Source of the DNA: Maricaulis salignorans
GTDB taxonomy: Bacteria > Pseudomonadota > Alphaproteobacteria > Caulobacterales > Aquidulcibacteraceae
Direction of reading: 5' to 3'
Assembly: GCA_945891505.1 (NCBI GenBank)
Contig: CAMDDL010000006.1
Coordinates: 62,001-126,000, forward strand
Length of the DNA stretch: 64,000 nt
The position numbers were made by a program, and so were the translations under genes. The stretch's first letter is position 1; the number at the start of each line of letters is the position of its first letter. The notes beneath the pieces are model-generated. The model was not told the origin of the DNA. It saw only the letters and a list, made by a program, of their open reading frames with translations, and searched no databases. Shown one piece after another: positions 1,360 to 57,712 of the stretch.

Positions 1360-1504
1360 GCCCGACCGGTCATCCCCGGCCGACTGTAGATTAAATCACC
1401 GCAATCAACTGTGGTAGGTGGTGCTTAACCACTTTGCTTGGATTATATAGGGTGTGCAAGTTTCTTGATGTACCTATGGCCTTAGCCACTCGGAGTAGCC
1501 GCAT

Positions 1505-2944
1505 ATGACAGATTCCCAAAAGACGCAGCGCTGGTGGATTGCGCCAGTCTTGGCCGGGACATTGGGACTGGGTGCTGCTTTGGGCGCGACGGCGGTGGCG
1601 TGGTCAGCTGGTGGTCGTCAAGACACGGCAGTACCAGCGGCCAAGGGTGTGGATACGCTGCGCCAACTAGAAATTTTTGCCGATGTGATGGCGCGCGTCC
1701 GCACCGACTATGTCGTACCAACCAAGGATGACAAATTGGTGGCAGCAGCCATTGATGGCATGCTGCAATCGCTGGACCCACACTCCAGCTTTCTTGATGC
1801 CGAAGCGTTCAACAATATGCAGGTATCGACCAAGGGCGAATATGGCGGCATTGGTATTGAAGTGACCAGTGAAGATGGCGCGGTCAAAGTAATCTCGCCC
1901 ATGGACGATAGCCCAGCGGTTCGGGCTGGCATTAAGGCGGGCGACAAACTAATTGCTGTCGATGGCGTTTCTATTCTGGGCCTGCCCTTGGATGAAGCCG
2001 TCAAGAAGATGCGCGGCCCGGTTGGAACGTCAATCGACATCACGGTCGCACGCGAGAGCCAAGAACCTTTTGTCGCCAAAGTCATGCGCGAGACCATTGT
2101 GCTGAAGCCTGTGACAAGCAAAATTCAAGGTGACTACGCCTATATCCGCATTTCCACCTTTGTGAATGAACGCACCTCTGAAGGGCTCAACAAAGCGATT
2201 GATGATGTTCAACGCCAATTGGGTGGCCGCTTAAAAGGCATTGTGCTTGATTTGCGGAACAATGGCGGTGGTTTGTTGGATCAAGCTATTGAAGTGACCG
2301 ATATCTTCATGGATCGCGGCGAAGTGGTCTCTACACGTGGTCGCCGCGCAGACGACATTCAGCGCTATTATGGCACGCCGGGTGAGCGTTTGGTCAATGT
2401 GCCGATGGTGGTCTTGATCAATGAAGGCTCGGCCTCGGCGTCAGAGATTGTGGCTGGTGCGCTACAAGATCGCGGTCGCGCCACGATTGTCGGCATGGCT
2501 TCGTTCGGCAAGGGCTCTGTCCAGACAGTCATCCCGTTGCGCAATGGTCGCGATGGTGCATTGCGCCTGACGACGTCGAAATATTACACACCAGCCGGTC
2601 GCTCGATCCAAGGCGCTGGGATTGAGCCTGATATTGAGATTGGTGCCGTCCGCATCACAGAAGAGCAGTTGAAGGAGCGTAAAGCGCTCTTCCAAGGTGA
2701 GGAAGATCTGCCCCACGCGCTCGACAATGAGAGCGGCGTCAAGCGCAAGCCTCCACATATGCCAGCGGAAATGCCGCCGGTTGGCTGGAAGGAAACCGAA
2801 GATTACCAGCTGAAACGTGCCTATGAATTGCTGGCCGCGGGTCTTCCAAAGCGCGCGCTTACTGTCACCACACGTCGGGCTGAGAACAAGCCAGCCGAGG
2901 GTACAAGGTCGCCTGTCTCTGGGGCCCCTGTTACGCCAAACTAA
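1505..2944 (+). CDS. ctpA: Carboxyl-terminal processing protease CtpA (S41 family)
   Basis: The protein has 479 residues. A membrane anchor or signal segment lies at about residues 12-35. A PDZ domain spans about 105-190 (GIGIEV ... SPAVRAGIKAGDKLI), followed by the S41 protease domain. The serine-rich nucleophile motif GSASASEIVAGALQD is at about 308-322 and the lysine motif FGKGSVQ at about 334-340, so the Ser-Lys dyad is intact. The C-terminal tail is polar and proline-rich. S41 proteases trim or degrade periplasmic proteins, often cell-wall enzymes, which fits the adjacent amidase activator. The start ATG at 1505 has a GGAG Shine-Dalgarno sequence 9 bases upstream. The next gene begins 14 bases after the stop. 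Confidence 0.93.
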   Translation: MTDSQKTQRWWIAPVLAGTLGLGAALGATAVAWSAGGRQDTAVPAAKGVDTLRQLEIFADVMARVRTDYVVPTKDDKLVAAAIDGMLQSLDPHSSFLDAEAFNNMQVSTKGEYGGIGIEVTSEDGAVKVISPMDDSPAVRAGIKAGDKLIAVDGVSILGLPLDEAVKKMRGPVGTSIDITVARESQEPFVAKVMRETIVLKPVTSKIQGDYAYIRISTFVNERTSEGLNKAIDDVQRQLGGRLKGIVLDLRNNGGGLLDQAIEVTDIFMDRGEVVSTRGRRADDIQRYYGTPGERLVNVPMVVLINEGSASASEIVAGALQDRGRATIVGMASFGKGSVQTVIPLRNGRDGALRLTTSKYYTPAGRSIQGAGIEPDIEIGAVRITEEQLKERKALFQGEEDLPHALDNESGVKRKPPHMPAEMPPVGWKETEDYQLKRAYELLAAGLPKRALTVTTRRAENKPAEGTRSPVSGAPVTPN

Positions 2945-56054: not shown

Positions 56055-56086
56055 AAAAAAAGGCCGCGCCATGGTTAGGCGCGGCC
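56055..56086 (-). terminator. Rho-independent terminator (candidate sRNA or monooxygenase mRNA)
   Basis: On the minus strand the 9-base perfect stem (56086-56078 with 56070-56062, 7-base loop) is followed by seven T residues (56061-56055). The strand is clear because no T-tract exists on the plus side. It is 154 bases downstream of the monooxygenase stop. Confidence 0.93.
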
Positions 56087-56152
56087 ACCCTCTTGCGAGA
56101 GCCAAAAGGGCGTCTCCTCCCCGAAACGCCGCCGGACCGAAGTCCAAGCCTC
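56055..56152 (-). ncRNA. Candidate small RNA with an exposed purine-rich loop
   Basis: On the minus strand four hairpins follow each other within about 100 bases. The first is GGAC-UUCG-GUCC (56145-56134). The second is an 8-base stem (56130-56123 with 56116-56109, one GU pair) displaying the loop GGGGAG. The third is a short CUCU/AGAG stem (56101-56090). The last is the terminator (56086-56055). A TTGACA box lies at 56184-56179, about 30 bases before the first hairpin, but no good -10 box is seen. It could instead be the 3' UTR of the monooxygenase mRNA. No member of a known RNA family was recognised. The rest of the 55897-56239 spacer shows nothing else. Confidence 0.5.
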
Positions 56153-56239
56153 TTTTGTGTGACAATCTGTCACCTTTCTGTCAAGTCCCTTGGACTCTCT
56201 GTTGCAGCAAAGCCAAGCAAACCGCCTTCCGCGCAGGGC

Positions 56240-57712
56240 CTAGACCACCTCGTAGTCCGCCCAAACAACCGAGCTGACAGCCTCCGTATAGGATTTACAA
56301 TTGCCGCCCCAATTCTGGGTAATCTGGCCTTTGTCGTTCTTGTACCAAGAATTGCAGCTTGGATCGGCCCAGACAGTATGACCTAGTGAATCTTGTAAAT
56401 CGGCAATAAAGCGGGCTTGCGCCTCTGGCGTTACGGCGGCGGACTTGACCCTCTGCTCGATCAAACCTGCCAACATCGCCTGCACATACTCAATCTGACG
56501 CTCGAGCATGTAGGTAATCGAATTGTGGCCCAGATTGGTGTGCGGGCCGTACAGCATGAAGAAATTAGGGAAGCCCTTGGTCGTGATGCCCAGATAAGCT
56601 TCAGGCCCCTCTGCCCATTGATCGGCAAGGTGGGTGCCGTCTTGGCCCACCACGTCCAAGCTCCAATGCCAACCCGTCGTTTCAAAGCCGGTAGCGTAGA
56701 TGACCACGTCGAGATCATAATGGGTGCCCGATGCAACCTTGACGCCGGTGGCGTCAAAGCCTTCAATTCGGGCTGTCTCCAAGGTCACATGATCTTGTGT
56801 GAGGGCGGGATAGAAGGTGTCGGTGAATAGAAAGCGCTTACACCCGACGGCATAGTCGGGCGTGAGTTTGGCGCGCAATTCTGGATCGGCAATTTGCTTC
56901 TCCAAATGCCGTTTAGCGATGTCTGCATAGGCAGCGCGGCCTTCTGGAGTCCAGCTAAACGTTTGCCAGAAATACGTATCGGCGGTGTCAAAGATCATCG
57001 CCCGATTGCGGGCACCAAGGTCCATTGCGGCCTGCGGATTGCTCAGCAGGAGGGCGATCTCCGTGGCTGGAATCTCGCGGTCGCCACGAGGCCCAATATA
57101 ATTGGCGGAGCGTTGAAACACGACGAGAGACCCCGCCACTTTCGCCACTTCGGGAATCAATTGCACCGCACTGGCGGCAGAGCCAATCACACCGACGCGC
57201 TTGCCCTTCAGATCCACCTCGTGGTTCCAAGCCGCCGAATGCATGCTGGCCCCAAGGAAGTTAGCTTGCCCCGGAATCTCCGGAATTGAGGGGCGATTCA
57301 GTTGGCCGAGCGCAGAGATGATTGCGCCGACTATGTGAACTTGGCCGTCGGCGGTGGTTAAGGTCCAGCTTTGCGCGGCCGCATCCCAAATCGCAGAAGT
57401 TGCTTCGGTATTGAGGGACAAGAGTGGCTCTAAGCCAAAGCCCGTGACCAATTGTTCGCAATAGGCTTGGATTTCGGCCGAGCTTGGGTAGGTATTGGTC
57501 CAGTGAATTGCTGGTGCAAAACTATATTGATAGAGCGCGACCGGCACGTCGCACGAACAGCCCGGATAGGTGTTTTGCGCCCAAGTGCCGCCGACTTTGG
57601 CCCCTTTTTCCAGCAAGATCACATTCTGATAGCCAGCTTGTTTAAGCTGTATCGCGGCGGCTAAGCCTCCTAAGCCGGCACCGATAATGGCGATCGGTGT
57701 TGTATGATCCAT
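56240..57712 (-). CDS. Flavin-containing Baeyer-Villiger-type monooxygenase
   Basis: The protein has 490 residues. The FAD-binding motif is GAGLGGLAAA at about 11-20, followed by GGTWAQNTYPGC. The Baeyer-Villiger fingerprint FxGxxxHxxxW is met by FLGASMHSAAW at 152-162. The NADPH-binding GSAASA begins at about 177, and ATGFETTGW marks the second FAD contact region. The enzyme likely oxygenates ketones with NADPH and O2; the substrate is unknown. It is transcribed in the same direction as the PhoD-like gene upstream (80-base gap), and the candidate sRNA follows it. Confidence 0.9.
   Translation of the reverse strand: MDHTTPIAIIGAGLGGLAAAIQLKQAGYQNVILLEKGAKVGGTWAQNTYPGCSCDVPVALYQYSFAPAIHWTNTYPSSAEIQAYCEQLVTGFGLEPLLSLNTEATSAIWDAAAQSWTLTTADGQVHIVGAIISALGQLNRPSIPEIPGQANFLGASMHSAAWNHEVDLKGKRVGVIGSAASAVQLIPEVAKVAGSLVVFQRSANYIGPRGDREIPATEIALLLSNPQAAMDLGARNRAMIFDTADTYFWQTFSWTPEGRAAYADIAKRHLEKQIADPELRAKLTPDYAVGCKRFLFTDTFYPALTQDHVTLETARIEGFDATGVKVASGTHYDLDVVIYATGFETTGWHWSLDVVGQDGTHLADQWAEGPEAYLGITTKGFPNFFMLYGPHTNLGHNSITYMLERQIEYVQAMLAGLIEQRVKSAAVTPEAQARFIADLQDSLGHTVWADPSCNSWYKNDKGQITQNWGGNCKSYTEAVSSVVWADYEVV

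Follow-up and report, generated by a model that had tools for sequence, protein, structure and literature searches.

The 64,000-nucleotide stretch of DNA analysed here (the window) carries on its minus strand, from 56149 to 56055, the gene of a structured small RNA (Table 1), which is very likely the CrfA counterpart of an Aquidulcibacter species and a sponge of alpha-r8 sRNAs. In Caulobacter, CrfA is a carbon-starvation sRNA and an Hfq-dependent sponge which captures the alpha-r8 sRNAs SisA-D via a G/A-rich loop (PMC12559287). The RNA is therefore not a new kind but the counterpart of a known sRNA, by which a known circuit is extended across the order. A preliminary description, made from the sequence alone, had proposed a small RNA at this place. 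This reading was borne out, whereas the identity as a CrfA counterpart (RF01527) had not been recognised.

Table 1. Features of the RNA locus and its neighbours in the window.
Feature	Position	Strand	Basis or remark
Upstream neighbour, flavin-type monooxygenase	stop at 56240	same as RNA	
Probable -35 box, TTGACA	56179..56184	-	sequence; begins 35 nt before predicted transcription start
Possible operator, perfect dyad GTGACA-N3-TGTCAC	56159..56173	.	between -35 box and start
CrfA-type sRNA, predicted transcript of ~95 nt	56055..56149	-	RF01527 match, conservation block, fold
Hairpin 1, GGAC-UUCG-GUCC	56134..56145	-	fold; compensatory change in locus L011
Hairpin 2, 8-bp stem, loop GGGGAG at 56122-56117	56109..56130	-	fold; near-invariant core GCGTTTCGGGGAGGA
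Site predicted to pair with both alpha-r8 sRNAs of the genome, GGGAGGAGACGCCC	56108..56121	-	helix energy, shuffles
Hairpin 3, GCUCUC-GCAA-GAGGGU	56087..56102	-	fold; lineage-specific
Intrinsic terminator	56055..56086	-	9 G-C pairs (stem 56086-56062), 7-nt loop, TTTTTTT 56061-56055
Downstream neighbours, RmuC and, farther along, a Bax1-I protein			

An Rfam scan of the whole window at the gathering thresholds returned no family over its cut-off. In the permissive scan of 400 bases, however, CrfA (RF01527) matched from 56149 to 56053 with 32.2 bits (E 3.9e-4) over the full model (positions 1-136), so that the covariance search which the preliminary description had proposed did find a match exactly at the RNA locus, below the cut-off. 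As 32.2 bits do not reach the RF01527 cut-off of 38 bits, which is a curator's threshold, the RNA is missed by a standard Rfam scan and is not a CrfA member by that rule; we call it a counterpart (homologue) on other grounds. Its second hairpin (56130-56109) combines the G/A-rich loop GGGGAGG with a GGCGUUU / RACGCC stem, and the same core occurs in the second hairpin of all CrfA loci compared. Judged from its signals, it has a promoter of its own, with TTGACA 35 nt before the predicted start, and an intrinsic terminator with seven T residues, and the same genome contains two alpha-r8 RNAs whose complementarity to the loop region spans 14 and 13 contiguous pairs.

Recognition is also reciprocal. 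RF01527 finds this locus only, with no further match in the whole genome even at E 10, and among the 150 relatives scanned it gives one match at the RNA locus in each of the nine genus genomes, the window's own included. In the other direction, the model R2, which was built from the window's lineage alone, was tested on 15 Caulobacteraceae loci and in every one of them matched best at the CrfA position (23-42 bits). Among the 150 relatives, 22 members of family f3 lie over the RF01527 cut-off (41-160 bits), and the assignment of this family to the Caulobacteraceae is read from those same CrfA scores. R2 also gives 16-23 bits on some alpha-r8 loci, because GGCGUUU and the terminator are common to both RNAs.

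Other families were considered and rejected. Matches to SorX, suhB and the Betaproteobacteria toxic sRNA (14-19 bits) reflect resemblance of the terminator. Membership in alpha-r8 / mmgR (RF00519) was discarded as well, as the RNA scores 16.3 bits against a cut-off of 41 and carries the complement of the single-stranded UUUCCUCCC core instead of the core itself.

The promoter signal was present as described before, with TTGACA at 56184-56179 at a fitting distance upstream. TTGAC precedes the loop in all 84 related loci, where shuffles lead to an expectation of 7.8, mostly at a distance of 59-84 nt; neither TTGAC nor terminators served as selection criteria for these loci, although close relatives among them are not independent. 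An automatic promoter scan did not find a sigma-70 pair at the RNA locus, as a TATAAT-like -10 box is absent after TTGACA, and it is the conservation in relatives that supports TTGACA as a promoter element. For Caulobacter CrfA, the published residue numbering, in which G49 is the first G of the loop (PMC12559287), places the start at GCAAGGAC, 35 nt past the beginning of TTGACA (hand count in the Caulobacter-type crfA locus L032). The equal spacing in the window leads to a start at 56149 at GCTTGGAC (also counted by hand), where the Rfam match begins too. The perfect dyad GTGACA-N3-TGTCAC may bind a regulator of the RNA promoter. No second exact copy exists in the genome, and of the nine genus members eight retain the dyad and the ninth (L010) has it nearly intact.

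Folding of 56149-56055 reproduced everything that had been listed from the letters, i.e., four consecutive hairpins, the UUCG loop, an 8-base stem with the purine loop and the terminator with seven T residues; the strand, left unstated at that time, is the minus strand. The predicted transcript has a minimum free energy of -52.5 kcal/mol (z = -4.4) and only one of 200 dinucleotide shuffles was equally stable, while for the minus strand of the 130-nt stretch originally outlined z was -4.9 and none of 200 shuffles was as stable. The plus strand folds as well (z = -3.2), and a T run after its hairpins is absent there. Among the relatives, 63 of 84 pass a strict terminator test downstream of the loop (0.9 expected); those that do not pass include several CrfA loci of high score, in which T residues are too few. 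Open reading frames overlapping the RNA code for only 23-111 amino acids and none obviously matches the conservation pattern.

Within the genus, a base-by-base comparison of eight members shows 97-100% identity for the RNA with its promoter, compared to about 80% for the flanking coding sequence. In the eight close genomes, identity is 90-100% over a stretch that begins about 80 nt before the loop and extends to 60 nt beyond it (97-100% in the core) and drops to 42-74% in the adjacent spacers. In the window's genus together with one further genus, 97.4% of the pair cells are standard pairs. The preliminary description had made its reading depend on stems that are conserved in relatives, and they are. 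The alignment for compensatory changes which it had suggested gave a mixed result: in hairpin 1 both bases of a pair changed together once (compensatory, A-U to C-G in L011), whereas none was found in hairpin 2 across the order. Hairpin 2 is invariant in the genus and varies at one pair across the order (U-G, U-A, C-G), so that the core hairpin could be conserved for its sequence alone, which is expected if alpha-r8 pairing also constrains the stem. In helices 3 and 4 changes are mostly one-sided, and the pairing of hairpin 3 is kept in the genus.

This conservation bears on two explanations without a dedicated sRNA. That the hairpins arose by chance in intergenic DNA has a negligible probability: scans for promoters and terminators over the wider region are only modestly above shuffles, as this explanation would have it, but it is refuted by the conservation across genus and order, next to the fold (z -4.4) and the Rfam match (E 3.9e-4). 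It is also very improbable that the structure just belongs to the upstream monooxygenase gene, as its terminator and 3' untranslated region, and has neither a promoter nor a function of its own. The monooxygenase gene lies on the same strand, with its end at 56240, and no other terminator was detected in between; however, the conserved block begins around TTGACA, well past the stop codon, and is better conserved than the monooxygenase gene itself. Moreover, all relatives retain TTGAC, and other genera as well as Ca. Phycosocius spiralis (L010) carry the RNA but not this monooxygenase upstream of it. The signals thus support an independently transcribed, structured sRNA with a purine loop.

Two alpha-r8 RNAs are encoded in the genome of the window. 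The first (C4:21312-21234) scores 61.1 bits, over the RF00519 cut-off, and adjoins the gene of an N-formylglutamate amidohydrolase (FGase), beside which sisA is located according to its published position. The second (C14:58572-58651, 35 bits) lies beside a class II tRNA synthetase gene. Both contain the core GGCGUUUCCUCCC, which is complementary to the CrfA loop and the 3' arm of its stem over 13-14 contiguous pairs with one G-U. The earlier guess of a CU-rich partner for the purine loop is therefore well supported, with the pairing itself being predicted. RF00519 matches are found in all genus members, and in every one of them one or both alpha-r8 RNAs match the pattern of core plus T run.

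The length of this complementarity is not rare by itself, as runs of 13-14 counting G-U are reached by about 5% of shuffles in such G+C-rich RNAs; only its stability and placement are unusual. Duplex energies of the whole molecules were discarded as a measure, since with the entire molecules paired they are uninformative, and the energy of the helix was used instead. The best uninterrupted helix, GGGAGGAGACGCCC with GGGCGUUUCCUCCC, has 14 pairs and -29.2 kcal/mol, a value reached by 2 of 500 shuffles; with the other alpha-r8 RNA, a helix of 13 nt attains -25.9 kcal/mol (0 of 500). The predicted site coincides with the protected residues G49-C63 of C. crescentus CrfA, which pair with G33-C45 of SisA as demonstrated by probing and compensatory mutants (PMC12559287). 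The sponge function there is based on RIL-seq, probing, compensatory mutants and deletion phenotypes and includes four alpha-r8 sRNAs (PMC12559287).

As the GGGGAG loop looks like a Shine-Dalgarno sequence, the sRNA might instead act as a mimic that binds the ribosome or C-rich mRNAs. By calculation, a duplex can form with the 3' end of 16S rRNA (-15.3 kcal/mol), and CrfA was initially described as an activator pairing with mRNAs (Landt 2010, as cited in PMC12559287). However, we regard this explanation as unlikely, because the helix predicted with alpha-r8 is far longer and stronger (-26 to -29 kcal/mol) and because in C. crescentus the partners recovered by RIL-seq were alpha-r8 RNAs, the mRNAs proposed earlier not being among them (PMC12559287).

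When sites that alpha-r8 could target (GGGAGGAAA ahead of ATG) were searched for, a single candidate emerged. The ribosome-binding region GGGAGGAAATGATG of a gene labelled PQQ-dehydrogenase-like from its protein sequence by eye (L251 ~1501-1514, minus strand; G000:C14:11421-11434) is complementary to the alpha-r8 core, which makes this gene a candidate alpha-r8 target. At L188 (G147:C1:1171243-1171561, family f2), two adjacent copies of the RNA-like element GTTTCCTCCCC are followed by a terminator and are possibly tandem alpha-r8 siblings.

In the proposed sponge mechanism, transcription of the CrfA counterpart would begin at about 56149, driven by a promoter of its own (TTGACA at 56184), and stop at the 56055 terminator. 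The GGGGAG loop, which the RNA exposes, would pair first with the CCUCCC core of SisA-like alpha-r8 sRNAs, and the pairing would then spread into the 3' arm of hairpin 2 and displace the 5' arm. The GGCGUUU common to alpha-r8 and the 5' arm of CrfA suggests such an invasion of the hairpin, as the alpha-r8 RNA could replace the arm because both carry this sequence. The alpha-r8 RNA would thereby be kept off the Shine-Dalgarno regions of its target mRNAs and the target genes would therefore be released, an event that in Caulobacter takes place upon carbon starvation. In the Aquidulcibacter species the RNA is presumably expressed and active as a sponge, and Hfq dependence and the carbon-starvation trigger may hold there as well. 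As a tentative generalization, to which we give somewhat less than an even chance, CrfA would act throughout the order as a sponge by toehold strand displacement, where pairing at the loop opens the hairpin and yields a complex that is hard to reverse.

A natural comparison would be provided by Maricaulis. The alpha-r8-like RNAs in this genus carry UUUUCCUCCCC before the terminator, which is complementary to the loop and lacks GGCG; with no copy of the 5' arm in this core, pairing would stop at the loop. If strand displacement is true, loop-only pairing could thus be compared in Maricaulis. In the Maricaulis group an alpha-r8-like RNA with the core TTTTCCTCCCC shortly before a strong terminator was observed at L203 (1501-1575) and also at L204, L205, L210 and L211, in all cases under the RF00519 cut-off.

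Across four families the core GCGTTTCGGGGAGGA of hairpin 2 is almost invariant, while in other families different stems replace hairpin 1 and the terminator. As the hairpin served to gather the loci, selection partly accounts for the invariance of the loop itself. With the combined model R1, the RNA was detected in 219 of 398 Caulobacterales genomes at E 0.01, usually in one or two copies; R1 contains many of these loci, whose R1 scores are high by construction, and matches in the order at E ~0.001-0.01 are doubtful. Outside the order, 15 of about 380 genomes gave weak, borderline R1 matches (best E 3e-4, 31 bits), which are taken as noise. A search for the exact core hairpin in named genomes returned Aquidulcibacter, Candidatus Phycosocius, Maricaulis and Hyphobacterium, plus one planctomycete and one unclassified proteobacterial MAG as strays. 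Putative sponge and matching partner sRNAs are thus both found in a family other than that of Caulobacter (Aquidulcibacter, Ca. Phycosocius), and Maricaulis as well as some genera of a further family possess CrfA-type RNAs, which mostly score under the Rfam cut-off.

The CrfA sponge circuit was elucidated in a single species in 2025 (PMC12559287), and in the open-access collection searched, which spans part of the journals, no paper on CrfA in Aquidulcibacter was found. Added here are the range of the family, its recognition at scores short of the Rfam cut-off, and partner RNAs in this lineage that match it. The spread suggests that this feast-to-famine switch is old in the Caulobacterales, and the many natural variants provide material for testing which parts of the RNA matter.

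Among known systems, QrrX of Vibrio, as cited in PMC12559287, is comparable as a sponge that sequesters the family of sibling Qrr sRNAs, in another organism and with another signal. With the alpha-r8 / mmgR (suhB) RNAs (RF00519, SisA-D), the window RNA shares the layout of the terminator, from which the 16.3 bits arise, and alpha-r8 shares with CrfA the GGCGUUU of the 5' arm. However, where alpha-r8 has the CCUCCC core the window RNA has the complementary GGGGAGG loop, and it is predicted to be an antagonist of alpha-r8 and not a member. Compared to Caulobacter CrfA (RF01527; PMC12559287), it is shorter (~95 nt versus 136 model positions), has a UUCG-capped hairpin 1, a different third hairpin and terminator and AGACGCC in place of AAACGCC in the 3' arm, and lacks the loop UAUCCCCC of the Caulobacter terminal hairpin. 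Both RNAs have in common that they usually occur as a single copy, with the TTGAC element at equal spacing, a start GCnnGGAC, the second hairpin GGCGUUUCGGGGAGGARACGCC with its G/A-rich loop, a terminal hairpin and matching alpha-r8 partners.
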